DNA of 64,000 nt, from assembly GCA_033964015.1 (NCBI GenBank), contig JAWWUD010000062.1:62001-126000 (forward strand). The letters are read 5' to 3'. Made by a program: the position numbers and the translations under genes. Shown piece after piece: positions 3,856 to 14,984 of the stretch (position 1 is the stretch's first letter; every line of letters begins with the position of its first letter). Under the pieces are notes generated by a model. The model was not told where the DNA came from and ran no database searches. It saw nothing but the letters and a program-made list of their open reading frames with translations. The stretch is from Scolanthus callimorphus (lineage: Eukaryota > Cnidaria > Anthozoa > Actiniaria > Edwardsiidae).

Positions 3856-6837
3856 CTATCCAGTAACTGGTTTAACTCGAGCCATCTCTCGAAGCCTTGA
3901 AAACTGTCGTTGATTCAAGCCTTTAGTTAACATATCAGCAATCATGTCTTCCGTCCTGCAAAACTTGATTTCGATGACGCCATTACTCACTTGCTCACGA
4001 ACAAAATGAAACTTTATATCTATATGCTTGGCGCGTCCATGGAATTGTGGATTCTTGGTCATGCATATGGCGGACTGATTATCCTCAAAAATCAATGTAG
4101 GTGAAGATTTCTGTTTTCTGATAGAAGTTGCTGAATCCATATAGTTCCTTGAGCTGCGCTGGCTAGTGCCATATACTCTGCTTCTGCAGTCGAGAGCGCC
4201 ACGCACGTCTGTTTCTTGCTTCTCCAGCTAATTGCTGCTCCGCCCATTTGGAACATATATCCAGATGTAGACTTACGATCGTCTAAATCTCCAGCCCAAT
4301 CTGCATCTGAGTATCCTATGCAATCCTTTGCTTCATCTCTGCTGTAGAGTAGACCAAGATCCCTTGTTCCATTCAAATAACGTAGGATGCGCTTTATGGC
4401 AGTCCAGTGTTCTTTTGTTGGCTTTGCGCAGAATCGTGCGACATTGCTCACAGCATATGCAATGTCAGGCCTTGTTCTAGTTGACAAGAATAGTAGACTG
4501 CCAACCGCCGACTGGTATTGGGTCTGATCTGTCTTCTCATTGTCATCTGTAGCTTTGACTAGCTTCGAGCTTACATCAACTGGTGTACTTATTGGTTTAG
4601 AGTTATCCATACCAAATTTCTCCAAGACACCTTTCGTGTACGCTGATTGACCAATCCAAAGTTGTCCGGTTTCTGGATTCTGGACTACTTTAACACCCAA
4701 AAAGTGATGCAGCTCGCCCATGTCTTTCATCTTGAACTGTTTGGATAGGGCTTGCTTGACTTCAGTCATGCGTCTGTCACTTTTACCGGTCAGAAGTATA
4801 TCGTCGACATACACGGCGATAATAAACATCTCTCCCTCCAGGGCCGTAAAGATGCAGGGGTCTCCAGTGGTTTGAGCGAAGCCCATCTTCTTTAGCTTGT
4901 CGTCTAGTACAGCATTCCAGCATCGAGGCGACTGCTTGAGGCCATAGATACTTCTTTTTAGTTTACAAACTAAATGTTCTTTGCCTTTAGCTGTAAAGCC
5001 CTCTGGTTGTTTCATGTACACCTCCTCCTGTAGATCTCCATTCAGAAACGCGGTTGTCACATCCATCTGTCGTAACTGTAAACCATGCTGTGTTGCCATG
5101 GCAATAACTGTGCGTACTGATTCAAATCTGACTACAGGGCAAAACGTCTCGTCATAGTCAAGTCCATACTGCTGTGCGTACCCTTGAGCCACGAGTCGGG
5201 CCCTGTATCTTTCAACGTTTCCGTCAGCATCGGTCTTGAGCTTAAACACCCATTTACTACCCACTGGCTTTCTGTCTTTTGGAAGCACAACGAGATCCAT
5301 ACTTCGTTTTGCTTCAGCGACTCAAGTTCCTTGTTCATCGCTTCCCGCCATTTTACTTTGTCGTCACCTGATAAGGCTTCTTTTGCTGTCTTGGGCTCTC
5401 TCGGCTCAGCGTTTGCTACTGTTACCCACTCGCCATAGTAATCAGGTGGTCTTGTCTCTCTTGTTAATCGACGTAATTGGGGTTGGGCGTCTTTTTCTTC
5501 TGTGTCATCAGACTCTCCCGAGTTGCAGTCAAACTCAACGAGACGATCTTCATCTTCTTCCTTGACCTCTTGTTCAGCCTTAGGCTCCTCCTTAGGTTCA
5601 GCTTCCTTCTCTTCACAGAAGACGACATCACGGCTGTAAAACACGCGTCGCTTCTCAGGATCATAGAGTCTGTATCCTTTGGTTTCTTCGCCGTATCCAA
5701 GTAGGATGCATTTCTTGGCTTTCGAGTCTAACTTCTTTCGTTCATCTTTCGGAACGTGTGCGTATGCAGTGCACCCGAATGTGCGTAGGTGCTCTACATT
5801 GGGTTTGTCGCCTGTCCATGCTTCATATGGAGTCATGTCCTTCAGCGCCTTGGTTGGACTTCTGTTCCTCAGGTATACCGCTGTCGATAATGCTTCTGCC
5901 CAGAACTTGGGTGGCAGCTCCGCATCTTCTAACATCGACCTCACGGTTTCCACCAGAGTCCTGTTCATCCTCTCCGCTACTCCGTTCTGTTCAGGTGTTT
6001 TCGGAATGGTTAGTTGACGACGAGCACCCTCAGATTTCAGGTAGCTTTCAAACTCTGCAGAGGTATATTCTCCTCCATTATCCGTGCGCAAGATTTTCAG
6101 CCTATGTCCACTAGACTTTTCCTCTATTTATGGAAGACCTCATCTTTGCGCTTCAGGATATACACCCACACGTAGTGAGTCTTGTCATCAATGAAAGTGA
6201 GAAAATATTCTCCACCGCTCAGGGACTTTGTGCTCATTTTCCCACAAACATCACTGTGGACCAAACCAAGTGGCTCCGCGGACCGTCTGCTGCCTTGGAC
6301 CGGAAATGACTTGCGGTGAAGCTTGCCTTTCGTGCACGGCTCACAGATCTTTTTCCCCTTGGAAAACTTGTAGTCGAAACCTTCGACCATGTCGTCCTTA
6401 GCCAACTTCTTCAGGTTTTCCACACCCAGGTGTCCATATCGCCGGTGCCATGTTTCTGCAGCGGCATTTGACTGTGCTCGGCCGTCACGACAATTCAGGT
6501 AGTAGAGATTTCCTACCCTTGTCGCAGTCCCTATCAACTTCCGGTTCCCGTCCGTAATCACGCAACCGGCCTCGCTGAACTCCACGGCCTTTCCAGCTTT
6601 CGTCACTCTTGACACACTGAGTAGATTGTATGCCAGCTTTGGTACATACAATACATCATGCAACTTGCACTTTGTTTCACCGTCCTTGGCTACGAGCTCC
6701 AGTTTAACAACTCCTTTTCCAGTAGCCTCAATGACAGTTCCATCACCTAATGTGACTTCCTCGGGCTCTTCTAAGCTACAAAGTTCGACAAACAGCCGTT
6801 TATCGCTGCACATATGACAGGTTGCACCTGAGTCCAC
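3856..6837 (-). pseudogene. Copia pol: protease, integrase, RT, RNase H (frameshifted)
   Basis: The 6837-6124 frame begins with the aspartic protease motif DSGATCHM, followed by the integrase zinc module (WHRRYGHLG, then CEPCTKGK) and the first part of the catalytic core (HSDVCG). The 6091-5132 frame continues the core with DNGGEY and the Glu of EQNGVAERMNRT, then an acidic linker. The 5300-4092 frame holds the Copia-type reverse transcriptase (QMDVTTAFLNG, catalytic YVDDILLTG) and the start of RNase H (DADWAGD, TAEAEYMA). The 4206-3856 frame holds the RNase H end (EDNQSAI, AKHIDIKFHFVRE). The active-site residues remain, but breaks near 6125, 5290 and 4130 separate the pieces, and another near 6840 separates them from gag. 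Confidence 0.93.
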
Positions 6838-7616
6838 GATCCAGCTATCCTATTTGCCTTGTGTTTTCCTCTGTGCGCATTCTCCTTTTTGTGCGCGGAA
6901 TCATAACTGCCACTTGCCAGTTCTCGACAATCTCTTTTAATGTGACCAAATCGATGACAGTGATGACACCTTGGGCCTTTGCCTTTTCTGCGATGCTCAC
7001 CAGCCATTGCCTTTATCTCGCCACCCGAGCCGCAATATTTCTCTTTTAGCTTGCCTTCTTCGTGTAACAAGCGCTCGGTGACTATCTCCATCTTAGGCAC
7101 TTCTGAGTTTGCTTCAAGGGCCGTAACTAGCATGCTGTAAGAATCAGGAAGGCTTGCGAGTAAATGAACTACACGATCTTCCTCTTTAACGGGGTCACCT
7201 GCTGCCGCAAGGCCGTCGAAGATTTCTATCATCGCTTTGATGTGCTTTTGCACGGAATCACCGTCCTTTAATCGTAAAGAGTACAACTTGCGTCTCAGGG
7301 CGAGTTTGTTAGCCCACGTTTTCTTCTGGAATTGATCCGCAAGTCTGTTCCATACAGCCGCAGGGTCTTCAGGTTCTCCTAACAAGTAGAGAAGAGTCGG
7401 GTCTACGGAGAGCACTATCGTAGCTAGAGCGCGGTCTCTTTGCGTCATGAACTTGGAATATTTTTCCCCTTCTGTCTCAGCGGGTGCAGCTTCCTTTTCG
7501 CACACAATATCCCAAAGTCCATCTCTCATCAGAGCCATCCGACACTGTACTTTCCATGTAGGATAGTTTTTCCCATTCAGCGGAACTATCGCGACGGTTT
7601 TCGAGTCTGTAGCCAT
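6771..7616 (-). CDS. Copia gag with CCHC zinc knuckle
   Basis: A 281-codon frame starting at the ATG at 7616, about 140 bp inside the 5' LTR. The N-terminal LNGKNYPTWK motif and the central Gag helices are those of Copia-type gag (UBN2 family). A CCHC knuckle, CHHCHRFGHIKRDC, lies near residues 217-230. Gag packages element RNA into virus-like particles in the cytoplasm. The last ~30 codons run out of the pol frame because of a shift near 6840, so the native gag-pol junction is lost. Confidence 0.9.
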   Translation of the reverse strand: MATDSKTVAIVPLNGKNYPTWKVQCRMALMRDGLWDIVCEKEAAPAETEGEKYSKFMTQRDRALATIVLSVDPTLLYLLGEPEDPAAVWNRLADQFQKKTWANKLALRRKLYSLRLKDGDSVQKHIKAMIEIFDGLAAAGDPVKEEDRVVHLLASLPDSYSMLVTALEANSEVPKMEIVTERLLHEEGKLKEKYCGSGGEIKAMAGEHRRKGKGPRCHHCHRFGHIKRDCRELASGSYDSAHKKENAHRGKHKANRIAGSWTQVQPVICAAINGCLSNFVA

Positions 7617-7741
7617 GCTTTTAGAACTTCCACAGGTATCCCAAGATTTGCGTGTAACACAGTCACTTCAAAAGGCCAGGTCACTCAGATTCAAAATGGC
7701 GATCTACGAGTCTCTTCGAGTCTTCGTCTTCAGGCTTGCAC

Positions 7742-8261: not shown

Positions 8262-8267
8262 ATTATA
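8262..8267. repeat. Target site duplication ATTATA (left)
   Basis: ATTATA directly abuts the left end of the Polinton-like element and matches 14979-14984 exactly. Six-base duplications are the Polinton/Maverick signature. Confidence 0.9.
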
Positions 8268-9027
8268 AGTAGTATAGTAGGTATGGAATTAGCCCCTTTT
8301 TTGCGGAGCCCGGTGCGGAGCCGCGGAGCCATGACGTCACAAATGAGGAGCCCGGTGCGGAGCCTCGGAGCTTTTTTCGGAGCCCGGTGCGGAGCCCGGT
8401 GCGGAGCCGCGGAGCCGGATGACGTCACAGACTATTTTTTTGCGGTTGAGCCTGCGGCTGAGCATGCGGGTGAGCCGGACGACGTCATTGCCTATTGTAT
8501 TCAAAACAAAGGGAGACAATAGGATACCCCCCCCCCCCCCCCTACTTTTTTGTCTCAAGACAAAAGAAGGAGCATTGTGGTGAGGAGCCTATTGTAATTG
8601 GAGACATTAGAAGGACACCCCCCACCCCCCTACTTTTTTTTGTCTCAAGACAATAGAACAATAAAAGCTATTGTTCTCGGACTCAATAAAAGCCTAGCAC
8701 TGAAGTCACCATCGAGTAATATTATTCCACGGTTCAATGGGTTCTTATGCTAATGAGTCTTTTGTATTTCTAAGTCTTTTGTGTAAGGGATTAGTGTTTG
8801 TTGACTGCAAGTCGAATATTAATTATAGTGTAAGGTTTTGTTTATGCGGAGATAACATGATGCAGAAATATGGTTTATTCTCTTTATTATAAAATGAATG
8901 AATATCGATTACATAAAATACTATTACATAAAATACTACCACTAACGGTTAGGTAAATAACCGCTTTATTAAGAAATTGATTACAAGTCTAAAGTCTGTT
9001 CACTAGTATTCTTGACTTGAGGTAGAG
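8268..9027. repeat. Left terminal inverted repeat of the Polinton-like element
   Basis: 760 bp matching the reverse complement of 14224-14978 with few differences. The outer part holds GC-rich tandem units based on GCGGAGCCCGGT. Two copies of the CRE-type octamer TGACGTCA lie at 8332-8339 and 8420-8427, with a third near-copy at 8481-8487. A C-run at about 8527-8542 is longer than in the other arm. The inner end overlaps the last ~16 codons of the acidic zinc-ribbon gene. Confidence 0.92.
8965..8970 (-). terminator. Poly(A) signal inside the left inverted repeat
   Basis: AATAAA on the minus strand, 11 bases past the stop codon of the acidic zinc-ribbon gene. The same hexamer in the opposite arm serves the ATPase gene. 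Confidence 0.6.
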
Positions 9028-9853
9028 TTTTCCACTCATCTTTTTTCTTGTTGTAATACGAGCCCGCCATGCAATCATAACACCGCAGAAAAGACCCCTT
9101 CCAAGCTTTTCCCATTGGGGATTGCTTTTGACAAACTGGGCATTCGTAGAGTTTGTCTTTTTCGTAACGTCCGGACATTTTATCTTGCCACAAGCATTTT
9201 CCACACCCAGCAATATCGATGCGATAAGAATTGTTCCCTTCACAATGACTGCATAATCCATCAGCTTTCTTTTCAATGTCACCCGAGACTCCATCTCCCA
9301 CTTGTCTCATGTCTTCGTCACTGGATTGCTCAGTTTCCTCATCATCGGATTGCTCCACGTCCTTATCGTCACTAGATTGGTCAGTTTCTTCATCACTTTC
9401 ATTATTATCGTCCGTTTCATCATCGCTAGACTGCTCGCTTTGTGTCTCCCTACTTTCATAGGTAACTACATCGTTCAAAGCTGCTTTGTTACGGATCAGT
9501 CTCTTATCAATTCCTAATTCTGCAAGTCCCTCGAGAAAAGCCTTTAAACCTCTTGGTGGTGAAATGTCTTCGCTGAAAGGTAGTAATACAAACTCTACAA
9601 GATCAGCAATAACTGTGTTTGGTATTCTGCGTTTACGACGAATCATTTCCCCGTTAGGCGACCAAAACAAAATATCTTTAGAGGCGGCTATACTGTGCAG
9701 AAGGTCTCGGGCATTTTGATAGGGAACAGCATTTGAAATCTGATTCAACACGTCTTTGATTCGAGGTCCATCTTTTTCCTCCTCTTGCTCACTCTCGTCA
9801 TCGCTAGACATATCGCTGTCTGAGTCCAGTGAACGTTTCATGGCGAATACCAT
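8981..9853 (-). CDS. Acidic zinc-ribbon protein of the Polinton-like element
   Basis: 290 codons from the first ATG at 9853 (a second ATG at 9841 gives 286). The frame is open upstream but has no ATG there, and the TATA box at 9889-9896 favours one of these two starts. Layout: an acidic N-terminus rich in Ser, Asp and Glu; a hydrophobic helical module at about residues 30-130 (ILFWSPNGEMI, then IADLVEFVLLPF); a long Ser/Asp/Glu-rich linker at about 135-195; and a C-terminal zinc ribbon with four pairs, CSHC, CGKC, CPVC and CYDC. The last ~16 codons lie in the inverted repeat. I do not recognise a named family. Similar helical modules occur, to my recollection, in other metazoan Polinton-like copies, which is not checked. 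Role unknown; nucleic-acid or protein binding is only a guess. Confidence 0.75.
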   Translation of the reverse strand: MVFAMKRSLDSDSDMSSDDESEQEEEKDGPRIKDVLNQISNAVPYQNARDLLHSIAASKDILFWSPNGEMIRRKRRIPNTVIADLVEFVLLPFSEDISPPRGLKAFLEGLAELGIDKRLIRNKAALNDVVTYESRETQSEQSSDDETDDNNESDEETDQSSDDKDVEQSDDEETEQSSDEDMRQVGDGVSGDIEKKADGLCSHCEGNNSYRIDIAGCGKCLWQDKMSGRYEKDKLYECPVCQKQSPMGKAWKGSFLRCYDCMAGSYYNKKKDEWKTLPQVKNTSEQTLDL

Positions 9854-9888
9854 TGGCAAATGATTTGCTGATCCTCAAACGTGACTTG

Positions 9889-9896
9889 TATTTATA
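9889..9896 (-). promoter_or_regulatory. TATA box for the acidic zinc-ribbon gene
   Basis: Minus strand reads GGGTATAAATAC, placing TATAAATA 36 bases upstream of the ATG at 9853. It sits just past the stop codon of the pX-like gene (9900), so the two minus-strand genes appear to be separately promoted. Confidence 0.7.
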
Positions 9897-9899
9897 CCC

Positions 9900-10214
9900 T
9901 CAGAGGAGTAATGCTAAAACAGGGACGAGTAGGTCTTGGACAAACCCACCCCCTTTTTGTGACAAGATTTGCTGTTTTTCTTTGAAAGGGGTGGAACCAC
10001 TAGCCAAGGCGCCTAGGTCCTCCCCGTGTCGTCTTATGTTACTAAACTCCTCGTCACCCAATGGAATATATCCATTTCCAACATTATGGGCAATCTGAGT
10101 TAGAGCATGTACTTGTTCTGGGGTGGCTGTGTCGAGAAGGTATTGACGCTGATGCCGTGGGCAGTGACACAAGGCTTGTAGGAAGCCTACGTTGTTCTTC
10201 ACTACTCGAGACAT
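9900..10214 (-). CDS. Small pX-like (adintovirus-type) protein
   Basis: 104 residues from the ATG at 10214. A longer in-frame start at 10250 overlaps the TATA box and is unlikely. An N-terminal helical region includes FLQALCHCPRHQRQYLL and a conserved-looking ALTQIAHNVGNGYIPL segment. A basic/polar middle with RRHGEDLGAL follows. The C-terminus, QKGGGFVQDLLVPVLALLL, is a glycine-hinged hydrophobic tail. This overall plan (small, helical, QKGG followed by a hydrophobic end) is what I associate with the pX or minor-virion-type protein of metazoan adintoviruses and Polintons. Function as a virion or membrane-active protein is inferred. It is the first gene left of the repeat array and diverges from the ATPase gene. 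Confidence 0.7.
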   Translation of the reverse strand: MSRVVKNNVGFLQALCHCPRHQRQYLLDTATPEQVHALTQIAHNVGNGYIPLGDEEFSNIRRHGEDLGALASGSTPFKEKQQILSQKGGGFVQDLLVPVLALLL

Positions 10215-10250
10215 GGTTGTAAATGAACAGAAGAAACATGATGTTACCAT

Positions 10251-10258
10251 TATTTATA
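10251..10258 (-). promoter_or_regulatory. TATA box for the pX-like gene
   Basis: Minus strand reads GGTATAAATAAT, 37-44 bases upstream of the ATG at 10214. It matches the box of the acidic gene almost exactly. Confidence 0.75.
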
Positions 10259-10303
10259 CCATTTCTTTATTGGAATAGCATTCTTTTGATGTGGCTTTAA
10301 AAC

Positions 10304-10353
10304 CTTAACTAGCTAACATAGTCTAACATAGTCTAACATAGTCTAGCTACCTA
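10304..10353. repeat. Left remnant of the decamer array
   Basis: Three copies of the decamer TAGTCTAACA type followed by TAGTCTAGCTACCTA, the same units as in 12296-12775. This is the part of the array left of the inserted composite element. Confidence 0.9.
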
Positions 10354-10626
10354 CAATCACCGACAAAATTGTTGAGAATTTTATGTCTATAATCGTTACA
10401 GATCGCCATACTAAAAAGTGTTGTGTTTCCATAAAATAAACCGCTACCCTTCTGGTTAAAACCCCTCCCCCCAACTCAATGTTGTTTTGTCAAACGCGCT
10501 AGTGGTTGGGCTTCAACATTGAATAAGGGGGAGGGGAAATTAAAGCCAAGAAGACATCGCTTACGCAGTTGAAATGGAGAAAAGCATTTTCGAAGGAAAA
10601 TTCTCAACCACTTTTGTCGCTGATTG
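10354..10626. repeat. 273-bp end module A (MITE-like)
   Basis: Has its own imperfect terminal inverted repeats (CAATCACCGACAAAATTG at the start, CTTTTGTCGCTGATTG at the end). As far as I can read it is base-for-base identical to 12023-12295. Confidence 0.9.
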
Positions 10627-12022
10627 TCTGAGCTTGGGAATACTGGTTTTATTGTTTTCACGACTTCCTGGACCAATCGCATTAGGTGAAAAGCGAATAA
10701 ACTCACGCAGATTGACAAAAGCAATCATTTCATAATGATTTTAATGTAGTTATCATGATTATTCGGATCTACTGGACGAAAAAGTGAGCTTTTTATTCTG
10801 GAAACTATGCAGCAAAGACAGCCTCGCGCGACCCTTGACGTCATCGATTTGAGGAAATTCCGCCACCAGGCTCACTGTGGTGCTTCGTGGAATCCAATAA
10901 TGGTGTGAATGGCCTATGATGATGCTGTTCAACAAATAATTGAACGAAGAATTTGGCTTTTTAACGTATACCGACTGCACAACAACGATTTTTGAGCAAA
11001 TTTGACAGAGAAACCCCTGGCAAAACAAGAAAAACACAGACAACCAGTTCTCAACACGCGCATTCGATGCCATAAAATCGTGTTGTTTACAAGATAGCAC
11101 ACGAAAAGTAGCACATGAGTTAGCTCTTAGTAATATCTCGAAAAATTATGCGTCGATACATTAGTGAAGAGAGGACAAAATGAGAAAACATGGCTAATAC
11201 ATATGTTGTTGACGAGTGTAAGGGAAACGTGCCTCGCGATTTAGCTCGAAAACCTCGAAATTTCATATTACCGAGTACCAAAAAACAACGAAAAGTATTT
11301 ATTTCAAGTTGTTTTATCATTTACACAGTAAAAGTTAATGAGTTAGTCTGATTTCTTTAATTTAAACACGAAAATTAACACAAAACGGCACGCCGTACGC
11401 GTCACCATTCTGAGAGATAAAGAGAACAATACCAGATTTCTTTTTGTTTTTGCCGCGCCGTACGGTGAAGCGTTTGATCAACCTAAAAACTGTTTGTAGA
11501 TCCCTCAAAGCGTTTCAATTCCAGTTGTTTTGCGTCGGGATGATTATATTTGCACATTTCATTCACCTGAAGTTCCCAGAAACCTAAAATCTCTCTTCGC
11601 GATTAAGTTATGGGCAGATTTTCTCGGGAACCACACTTCACCGGAAGTCAAATCAAACAGGTGACGTCATCACCGAAAGATGATCTCTTATTTGCACTGA
11701 AACTTCAGTTTTGTGCAGCTTTCACGATTTATATCCACAAAACTCCTAACAAGGCTCATTTTGATAAACTTTGTTTCCTCACGAATTTAATATCATTTAA
11801 TTTAGTTCAACTGACAGCTTCTTGGCGCAGCCCTTGTCTCAAAATGGCCCCCAATTTCCTTGAAAACCTTGTTGTCTGTATCAATGAATAAGAATGCAAA
11901 TGGCTCCAAGTAGCTTCAACTTTCGAAATTAGGACACACAATTCGTTCTGTCTTTCAAATTTGTATGATTTTAGCCATACTAGCCCGTTTTAACTTCATT
12001 TCCGAAAAAGTCGATTTTCAGA
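10627..12022. other. Core of the composite element, no gene recognised
   Basis: 1396 bp bounded by short inverted TCTGA / TCAGA at the junctions with the end modules. Several short frames exist (for example 10759-11100 minus and 11610-11891 plus), but none shows a known motif. Confidence 0.5.
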
Positions 12023-12295
12023 CAATCACCGACAAAATTGTTGAGAATTTTATGTCTATAATCGTTACAGATCGCCATACTAAAAAGTGTTGTGTTTCCA
12101 TAAAATAAACCGCTACCCTTCTGGTTAAAACCCCTCCCCCCAACTCAATGTTGTTTTGTCAAACGCGCTAGTGGTTGGGCTTCAACATTGAATAAGGGGG
12201 AGGGGAAATTAAAGCCAAGAAGACATCGCTTACGCAGTTGAAATGGAGAAAAGCATTTTCGAAGGAAAATTCTCAACCACTTTTGTCGCTGATTG
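12023..12295. repeat. 273-bp end module B (MITE-like)
   Basis: Direct copy of 10354-10626. Identity implies a recent duplication or ongoing gene conversion. Confidence 0.9.
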
Positions 12296-12775
12296 TAGTC
12301 TAACATAGTCTAACATAGACTAACATAGTCTAGCTACCTAGTCTAACATAGACTAACATAGTCTAGCTACCTAGTCTAACATAGTCTAACATAGACTAAC
12401 ATAGTCTAGCTACCTAGTCTAACATAGTCTAACATAGACTAGCTACCTAGTCTAACATAGTCTAACCTAGACTAACATAGTCTAGCTACCTAGTCTAACA
12501 TAGTCTAACATAGACTAACATAGTCTAGCTACCTAGTCTAACATAGTCTAACATAGACTAACATAGTCTAACATAGACTAACATAGTCTAGCTACCTAGT
12601 CTAACATAGTCTAACATAGACTAACATAGTCTAACATAGACTAACATAGTCTAGCTACCTAGTCTAACATAGTCTAACATAGTCTAACATAGACTAACAT
12701 AGTCTAACATAGACTAACATAGTCTAGCTACCTAGTCTAACATAGTCTAGCTACCTAATCTAACATAGTCTAACT
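12296..12775. repeat. Decamer tandem array upstream of the ATPase gene
   Basis: About 480 bp built from decamers AGTCTAACAT and AGACTAACAT, punctuated by a 13-base spacer AGTCTAGCTACCT in higher-order units of roughly 43 to 63 bp. The array lies between the divergent TATA boxes at 10251-10258 and 12782-12788. The period equals about one turn of B-DNA, so a bound factor would recur on one face of the helix. That role is inferred. Confidence 0.95.
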
Positions 12776-12781
12776 TGTGTG

Positions 12782-12788
12782 TATAAAA
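12782..12788 (+). promoter_or_regulatory. TATA box for the ATPase gene
   Basis: TATAAAA lies 45 bases before the ATG at 12833 and immediately after the decamer array. Confidence 0.75.
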
Positions 12789-12832
12789 GAGGGCTCGAGT
12801 GCAGATTGTGTCAGTTAAGCACACGTATCGTC

Positions 12833-14194
12833 ATGGGAAGGTCATGCCCTTTATGTGGGAAGCACCAAAATAATATTTCGACTCATCTTAGCAGGATTCA
12901 CGGAATGGATGGGGCCGACAGAAAGTATTGGCTGCAACAGGAAATCAATCAGCGAGGAATTCCCTCTTTTCCTAGGACACAAAATACAATAGAGAAGCAT
13001 GATTTGTGTGGGCCCTTTCAACTCCAACATCCTTTTACCTGCATGGTCGCAGGAATGACCGGAAGTGGAAAAACCGTTTGGGTACAGAAACTACTAGAGC
13101 AGGCACAAAAAACAATCTCACCCCCACCCCAACGCATAGTCTGGTGCTATGCTCAGTGGCAGCCAGCCTACACCGCTTTAGCCATGTCTATGCCACAAAT
13201 AGAATTCGTAAAAGGAATCCCAACCAACATTGAGCAAGACTCGTACTTTGACGTGCATATACGAAACCTCATTGTCATTGACGATCAGATGATTGAAACC
13301 GGGAATGACGATAGGATTGCAAACTTATTCACCAAGGGATCCCATCACAGAAATCTGTCAGTGATTTATATCTTACAAAATCTGTTCCATCAAGGAAAAG
13401 TCAATCGAAACATATCCTTAAACAGCCACTACTTGGTCCTATTCAAGAACCCAAGAGACCAATTGCAAGTGATGACGTTGGCAAAACAAATGTATCCACG
13501 CAACACGCATTACTTTCTTGACAAGTATGAAGAGGCTGTGCGGAAACCTTTTGGCTACCTGTTTGTTGACTTAAAACCAGCAACCAACGACAACTGCAGA
13601 CTACGCACCAATGTCCTTCCTGGGGAAGAGACAGCCATCGAGAAAACGGATGACGCCATTGGGAAAGAGCTCCTAAAATTTCTTAGTTATCAAAATATGG
13701 ATCTTTCTCCAGAGAAGCTGCGCATGAGAGAACTACACGACAAAATGAATGACATCCTTCACAGTCAAACTATGAGTGAAGGTGACAAGGTAATACGATA
13801 CACGCAGCTTCAAAACGATTTGTTGCGAATGAAGCACCAAGCAAGTCACACTCCTCCAGCGAGTGTAGAACCACCAGTAGCAACACCTACCTACACTACT
13901 CCCCAAAGTATCCCGTTATCATCACCCGAGGCAGCCACCATACCCTACTCGGCAAAGGTGGTAGAATCTCCCAAGACATCCTTTGTTCCGCTGACCCCAA
14001 CACTTCCAGAACTGACTTTGACACCGCCACCATCAGCGAGTATTACCCCAAAGAAGCCAAAGAAGCCAAAATTAAAAAATATATTAAAGAATTATTTGGA
14101 TGATGATGCCGATAAAGACGGACCGTATCTAAAATCCACGTTGAGACGCTATCGGTTGCGTTCTTACCGTTCTTCTCCGTATAAAATTAAATAA
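12833..14194 (+). CDS. A32-type DNA-packaging ATPase (FtsK/HerA fold)
   Basis: 453 residues from the first ATG at 12833. The frame is open further upstream but has no ATG and contains the TATA box. An N-terminal C2H2-like finger (C5, C8, H18, H23) precedes the ATPase domain. Walker A is GMTGSGKT at 74-81; Walker B is LIVIDD at 146-151. A downstream LFTKGSHHRNLS block (165-176) and ILQNLF (180-185) are typical of A32-like ATPases of Polintons and adintoviruses, which pump genomic DNA into capsids. The C-terminus is a Pro/Thr-rich linker (about 350-420) and a very basic tail. The gene runs outward and uses the poly(A) signal in the right inverted repeat. The ATPase motifs look intact and the frame is unbroken. 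Confidence 0.88.
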   Translation: MGRSCPLCGKHQNNISTHLSRIHGMDGADRKYWLQQEINQRGIPSFPRTQNTIEKHDLCGPFQLQHPFTCMVAGMTGSGKTVWVQKLLEQAQKTISPPPQRIVWCYAQWQPAYTALAMSMPQIEFVKGIPTNIEQDSYFDVHIRNLIVIDDQMIETGNDDRIANLFTKGSHHRNLSVIYILQNLFHQGKVNRNISLNSHYLVLFKNPRDQLQVMTLAKQMYPRNTHYFLDKYEEAVRKPFGYLFVDLKPATNDNCRLRTNVLPGEETAIEKTDDAIGKELLKFLSYQNMDLSPEKLRMRELHDKMNDILHSQTMSEGDKVIRYTQLQNDLLRMKHQASHTPPASVEPPVATPTYTTPQSIPLSSPEAATIPYSAKVVESPKTSFVPLTPTLPELTLTPPPSASITPKKPKKPKLKNILKNYLDDDADKDGPYLKSTLRRYRLRSYRSSPYKIK

Positions 14195-14223
14195 CAAAAA
14201 AAAATTGTAGCTAATAGGGAAAC

Positions 14224-14978
14224 CTCTACCTCAAGTCAAGAATACTAGCGAACAGACTTTAGACTTGTAATCAATTTCTTAATAAAGCGGTTATTTACCT
14301 AACCGTTAGTGGTAGTATTTTATGTAATAGTATTTTATGTAATCGATATTCATTCATTTTATAATAAAGAGAATAAACCATATCTCTGCATTTTCTGATA
14401 TGTTATCGCCGAATAAACAAAACCTTACACTATAATATTCGACTTGCAGTCAACAAACACTAATCCCTTACACAAAAGACTTAGAAATACAAAAGACTCA
14501 TTAGCATAAGAACCCATTGAACCGTGGAATAATATTACTCGATGGTGACTTCAGTGCTAGGCTTTTATTGAGTCCGAGAACAATAGCTTGCATTGTTCTA
14601 TTGTCTTGAGACAAAAAAAGTAGGGGGGTGGGGGGTGTCCTTCTAATGTCTCCAATTACAATAGGCTCCTCACCACAATGCTCCTTCTTTTGTCTTGAGA
14701 CAAAAAAGTAGGGGGGGGTATCCTATTGTCTCCCTTTGTTTTGAATACAATAGGCAATGACGTCGTCCGGCTCACCCGCATGCTCAGCCGCAGGCTCACC
14801 CGCAAAAAAAATAGTCTGTGACGTCATCCGGCTCCGCGGCTCCGCACCGGGCTCCGCACCGGGCTCCGAAAAAAGCTCCGAGGCTCCGCACCGGGCTCCT
14901 CATTTGTGACGTCATGGCTCCGCGGCTCCGCACCGGGCTCCGCAAAAAAGGGGCTAATTCCATACCTACTATACTACT
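14224..14978. repeat. Right terminal inverted repeat of the Polinton-like element
   Basis: Reverse complement of 8268-9027 with few differences, including a shorter G-run and small changes near 14385-14410. It carries CRE-type octamers at 14819-14826 and 14907-14914. It also carries a non-coding copy of the 3' end of the acidic zinc-ribbon gene. Confidence 0.92.
14281..14286 (+). terminator. Poly(A) signal for the ATPase gene
   Basis: AATAAA 87 bases past the ATPase stop codon, inside the right inverted repeat. It is the mirror of the signal at 8965-8970. Confidence 0.6.
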
Positions 14979-14984
14979 ATTATA
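14979..14984. repeat. Target site duplication ATTATA (right)
   Basis: Exact copy of 8262-8267, adjoining the right end of the element. Confidence 0.9.

Follow-up and report, generated by a model that had tools for sequence, protein, structure and literature searches.

Why would an element keep a packaging-type ATPase gene when no polymerase, integrase or capsid gene accompanies it? The question is raised by positions 8268–14978 of a 64,000-nucleotide stretch of Scolanthus callimorphus DNA (assembly GCA_033964015.1, contig JAWWUD010000062.1, positions 62,001 to 126,000; hereafter the window). A first-pass annotation, made from the letters alone, described this element as a three-gene mini-Polinton and as a satellite that keeps genes for its own packaging while borrowing replication and integration. 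It named further copies with the same ends, a recurrent gene layout, a low ratio of nonsynonymous to synonymous substitution rates (dN/dS) and ends shared with a full Polinton as signs of such a satellite, and we found all of these, which supports that proposal. The element is a Polinton by descent, non-autonomous and satellite-like in its behavior. We consider it likely that it is a satellite of Polintons (Mavericks), mobilized in trans and equipped with packaging-related genes of its own.

Three genes between Polinton-type ends

The element is bounded by 5′-AG ends, with 5′-AGTAGTATAGTAGG at both termini, and is flanked by a perfect 6-bp target-site duplication (TSD), ATTATA, at 8262–8267 and 14979–14984. 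Its inverted arms, at 8268–9033 (+ strand) and 14218–14978 (− strand), are each ~765 bp long and align over 774 columns with 96.1% identity (9 mismatches, 5 gap openings), in agreement with the ~760-bp repeats, AG termini and perfect duplication first described. The left arm includes the final codons of one of the genes, and the terminal 13-mer has two sites in the 64-kb window, both of which are the ends of the element. A later insertion at 10354–12295 (1,942 bp, with inverted ends and TA on either flank) lies outside the ancestral unit and is absent from another copy, L002. Without it, the element measures 4,767 bp, close to the 4,773 bp of L002 and to an early estimate of ~4.8 kb. The insertion is itself composite: ~1.4 kb is enclosed by two 288-bp repeats that are 98% alike and that each have inverted ends of their own.

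The three genes were each said to follow a TATA box, and TATAAA motifs do lie 44–55 bp before their starts. The first gene (12833–14194, + strand) is an open frame for a 453-amino-acid (aa) A32-type packaging-ATPase-like protein with an N-terminal zinc-finger motif, and its TATAAA (12782–12787, +) is 51 bp upstream of the start. The pX-like gene (9900–10250, − strand) has a TATAAA at 10253–10258 (−), 44 bp upstream of the start common to its relatives (10214, giving 104 aa). The acidic zinc-ribbon gene (8981–9853, − strand; 290 aa), whose last codons fall in the left arm, has one at 9891–9896 (−), 55 bp upstream of the start common to its relatives (9841). Both common starts fall slightly inside the first ATG. 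The element contains eight TATAAA motifs over both strands, five of them away from the three gene starts.

The unbroken A32-type frame reported at first is borne out by profile and pairwise comparisons. Pox_A32 matches the window ATPase at E = 8e-4, which is under the Pfam cut-off, and 18 of 20 aligned members of its family at E ≤ 0.01; the protein is also 34% identical over 237 aa to the ATPase of a canonical Polinton on contig C7 of the same genome, which passes the cut-off. Named protein relatives belong to stony corals and sea anemones. Genes for the zinc-ribbon and pX proteins are probably neighbors in other organisms too (P0123/P0241 and P0122/P0247, from contigs of equal length within each pair, 2022 and 1769 bases, so that each pair is presumed to share a contig).

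Among the open reading frames (ORFs) of the element of at least 80 aa, and in a Pfam scan of five element ORFs, we found no PolB, RVE integrase, protease, capsid gene or virophage-style major capsid protein, consistent with the lack of polymerase, integrase and capsid already noted. The element is also absent from the 99 capsid matches listed for the genome. No relative was confirmed by scanning IMG/VR with the ATPase, with pX, or with alignments of the ATPase and of the zinc-ribbon protein. Fold searches of the PDB with zinc-ribbon and ATPase models gave nothing at E ≤ 0.001, a PDB sequence search gave no meaningful match, and PHROGs gave weak matches only.

These proteins might instead interfere with or regulate a helper, as a decoy ATPase and a regulator, and so aid the spread of the element or spare the host with no packaging involved. 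In favor of such a role, the zinc-ribbon protein is acidic and resembles no solved structure significantly, and zinc-finger regulators are reported for some adintoviruses (PMC11071296). However, the Walker-A and other motif residues of the ATPase are almost invariant among its relatives, as expected of a working ATPase, and no direct evidence speaks for interference, which we regard as unlikely.

A multi-copy family under selection

We searched the genome (597 Mb in 302 contigs) for the ATPase of the window element, hereafter type 1, and obtained at least 96 matches (93 of 1634 candidates scored), some of which are fragments of one gene. Matches to pX and the zinc-ribbon protein stand beside the ATPase, arranged as in the window element, at 26 of the 29 other best loci, L003, L004 and L005 being the exceptions. 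A terminus like that of the window element follows within 1.5 kb downstream of the ATPase at 24 of 30 loci, the window counted. Four full-length copies have four distinct perfect 6-bp TSDs: ATTATA in the window, AATAGG at L002, ATCGCA at L007 (4,515 bp) and GTAAAA at L010 (4,166 bp). The window element thus belongs to a multi-copy family, mostly of 4–7-kb units, with Polinton-type ends, 6-bp TSDs and three genes. We also considered domestication of the genes by the host, and rejected it on the basis of the insertions at several sites with target duplications.

The open frames had at first been taken as a sign of recent mobility. Arm identity argues weakly for this in the window copy, at 96.1%, and better in L007, whose arms are 99.6% identical. 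The ATPase of L002 is 100% identical to that of the window (rounded protein identity), and the arms of L002 align in pieces, the longest at 98.9% over 624 bp and another at 72.6%. Stops or frameshifts are present in some copies.

Both genes examined for selection are constrained. The median dN/dS of the ATPase is 0.206, as computed from the 347 of 378 pairs with dS of 0.05–1.5 among the 28 of 30 copies that have no stop. The full 104-aa frame of pX is kept at 15 of 30 loci, with four more in which the frame is changed at its end, and its pooled ratio of nonsynonymous to synonymous differences (pN/pS) is 0.197 (16 copies, including that of the window). The ATPase and pX are therefore under purifying selection, at ~0.2. 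Selection on an ATPase within a unit that has no capsid genes is our main argument for the involvement of a particle, and a packaging role for the three genes is inferred.

The terminus pattern AGTAGTATAGTAGGNNNNGAATTA has 208 + 199 = 407 matches in the genome, and its reversed control has none. We paired facing ends up to 25 kb apart among the first 100 of these 407 places (C1 to part of C3), which yielded 27 units among the places listed. Twelve contain a type-1 ATPase match; ten of these are 3.9–6.9 kb long and two are 14.0 and 14.8 kb, one of the long units being two adjacent mini-elements. One unit contains only an ATPase of a second type (type 2, the kind found at L063), three contain a capsid match (14.0–14.3 kb), and 11 have no ATPase or capsid match. 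Six units of 1.2–3.4 kb with like ends but neither an ATPase nor a capsid match (G000:C3:19376978, C2:27414749, C2:1298098, C2:12674384, C3:26453167 and C2:9438214) are possibly gene-less derivatives.

None of the 27 end-paired units combines a type-1 ATPase match with a capsid match, and no capsid match, of the 99 listed, was seen within 15 kb of any of the 96 type-1 ATPase matches, both lists being lower bounds. Such a separation of ATPase units from capsid units with similar ends could be expected of a two-part, virus-like element, with packaging genes here and capsid and polymerase on a segment that lacks them. The full-size units that we examined nevertheless carry their own ATPase and pX, and we find this explanation very improbable.

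Relation to full-size Polintons

The full Polinton that shares ends with the satellite is a 14.3-kb unit at C1:26350061-26364335 (L061, L062), with the TSD TTCGGT. Its terminal 39 bp are 82–85% identical to those of the window element, where ~50 bp had been envisaged. Among its genes are those for an rve/chromo integrase, a PC4-domain protein and a C2H2 protein, as well as for a capsid-like protein (DJR-like, E = 0.015) and a protease-like protein (C48, E = 0.015), both under the cut-off. Its ATPase, a 108-aa pX-like protein and a 246-aa protein are encoded side by side on one strand.

The satellite ATPase and that of this Polinton, compared as two pieces, are 53% identical in one (108 aa) and 37% identical in the other (171 columns). 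The two pX proteins match over 104 columns (hhalign 98.1%, E = 9e-14), and the N-domain of the zinc-ribbon protein matches the C-domain of the 246-aa protein (91%, E = 1.1e-6). Relative to pX, the ATPase is inverted in the satellite. The satellite gene set appears to be the counterpart of three neighboring genes of the full-size Polinton (those for the ATPase, pX and the 246-aa protein), with the ATPase reversed. The zinc-ribbon protein apparently begins with a domain of the 246-aa protein, a further part of which may form the end of the ATPase.

Given this resemblance in the ends, and homologues of all three genes in the larger unit, the satellite might have arisen from a full-size Polinton by simple internal deletion, have spread a few times and now be decaying, its genes being leftovers; the stops and frameshifts of some copies would fit as well. 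Yet the identical three-gene junctions at 26 of 29 other loci, the inverted ATPase and the dN/dS of ~0.2 all speak against it, as does the low identity of the satellite ATPase to those of the 14.3-kb (37–53%) and C7 (34%) Polintons. This explanation is largely refuted and we hold it to be very unlikely. The narrower case raised in the first-pass annotation, a single internal deletion with no second copy, is excluded by the copies, the divergence and the inverted ATPase. The divergence of the satellite genes instead argues for an old lineage that has been kept separately.

The canonical Polinton on C7 has a 1581-aa polymerase frame, its own 245-aa ATPase and perhaps a pX, for which the comparison is weaker (48.6%). 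No facing end pair was found for it in L055–L059. A candidate left end, AGTAGATTAGTAG, lies at L059:2955 (G000:C7:13416954) with two mismatches to the satellite terminus, and a search of L055 and L058 found no partner end. Some genes in L056 and L061 are provisionally called pVI-like, penton-like and adenain-like. Genome-wide, PolB has at least 169 matches (76 of 534 candidates scored), many of them in long open frames, and the genome therefore contains possible helpers.

Under the satellite explanation, the shared terminal motif would let the polymerase and integrase of a Polinton copy and insert the satellite in trans. The three proteins, by analogy with other virus satellites, would open a separate way for it into the capsids of the helper, or favor its entry there.

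Several points weigh against the satellite explanation. It is drawn from sequence, with no observation of a particle, a transcript or a transposition event. The Polinton owns an ATPase, and why the satellite keeps one too is a guess. The selection sample consists of the best-scoring loci and its pairs are non-independent, so that the values lean low, and the tests cover the ATPase and pX, two of the three genes. The end similarity to the 14.3-kb Polinton is limited to 39 bp, and the ATPase tail matches the N-domain of the 246-aa protein weakly (53.5%, E = 1.3e-4). The polymerase of the 14.3-kb Polinton, the sole end-sharing one examined, is split over several broken frames (PF03175 at E = 3.1e-6 in one), and a helper with an intact polymerase and the same ends is hypothetical.

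A second ATPase type, palindromes and known systems

A second type of mini-Polinton was observed at L063:3614-7921 (G000:C1:42447771-42452078), a 4,308-bp unit with similar ends and the TSD GCCACC. It contains a zinc-finger A32-type ATPase gene and an acidic 158-aa gene. This type-2 ATPase is 34% identical to that of the window element over 302 columns, the zinc finger included, and is above the Pox_A32 cut-off. A genome search with it gave at least 96 matches (92 of 1267 candidates scored). Among the matches listed are 12 head-to-head pairs, spaced 2.2–3.4 kb apart.

Two head-to-head units were delimited by their ends. L064/L065 (G000:C14:22128816-22137418) is an 8.6-kb palindrome whose 4,259-bp arms are 99.77% identical, with the terminus AGTAGTATAGCCG and the TSD GCAGTT; each arm carries a PC4-like gene (just below the Pfam cut-off), an ATPase gene and an acidic gene. 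L004/L005 (G000:C40:198781-203846) is a ~5.07-kb unit of the window's own family with TCGGTT at both outer sides, whose two ATPase genes are alike at all but 2 of 1317 sites and which has no pX or zinc-ribbon match. For the head-to-head ATPase pairs on C13, C1, C8 and C6, no ends were found within the stretches read. The differing flanks argue against a folded-read artefact.

Such palindromes would arise through strand switching in replication, perhaps aided by a tandem array like that of the window element, where CTAACATAGT-type units fill 12296–12780 between the divergent genes and a short stretch at 10303–10353. Outside the element, the window also contains frames at 4092–7667 (− strand) that resemble a Ty1/copia retroelement.

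A broader picture can be offered tentatively, and we put it at somewhat below even: a guild of capsid-less packaging Polinton satellites may inhabit animal genomes, with at least two ATPase lineages (34% identical, dozens of matches each), palindromes formed via a snap-back or hairpin intermediate and capture of the dimer by the helper integrase, and Polintons as working viruses with a germline satellite ecology. A packaging-type ATPase kept under selection in a unit that lacks capsid and polymerase genes is most readily explained if DNA is being packaged. The family is indirect evidence for Polinton particles and a small three-gene system for testing, and its palindromic copies are a handle on how such DNA replicates. 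It would also extend to endogenous animal elements a satellite logic familiar from phages and giant viruses. A search of titles and the starts of abstracts, with the subscription literature mostly outside it, found no account of Polinton satellites that retain packaging genes or of ATPase-bearing Polintons without polymerase.

Polintons are described as 15–20 kb long, with pPolB, an RVE integrase and an FtsK-like ATPase among other genes (PMC4028283), and vertebrate Mavericks as having (AGT)2 end motifs and 6-bp duplications; Maverick particles are reported as not yet observed (PMC8097293). The satellite shares with autonomous Polintons (AGT)2-type 5′-AG ends, long inverted repeats, a 6-bp TSD and a homologous ATPase and pX-like gene. 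It differs in its ~4.8-kb size, in that polymerase, integrase, protease and capsid genes were not found, and in its ATPase, which is inverted and has a zinc finger and a long tail. Like virophages and the phage satellites P4 and phage-inducible chromosomal islands (PICI), it is a small element with incomplete replication machinery that would borrow the particles of a helper (in part after PMC4028283). Unlike virophages, it has no capsid gene and is integrated with Polinton-type ends, and its helper would be an endogenous element. With non-autonomous DNA transposons it has in common ends and target duplications and, presumably, movement in trans, but it differs from them in keeping three genes, two of which are under purifying selection.

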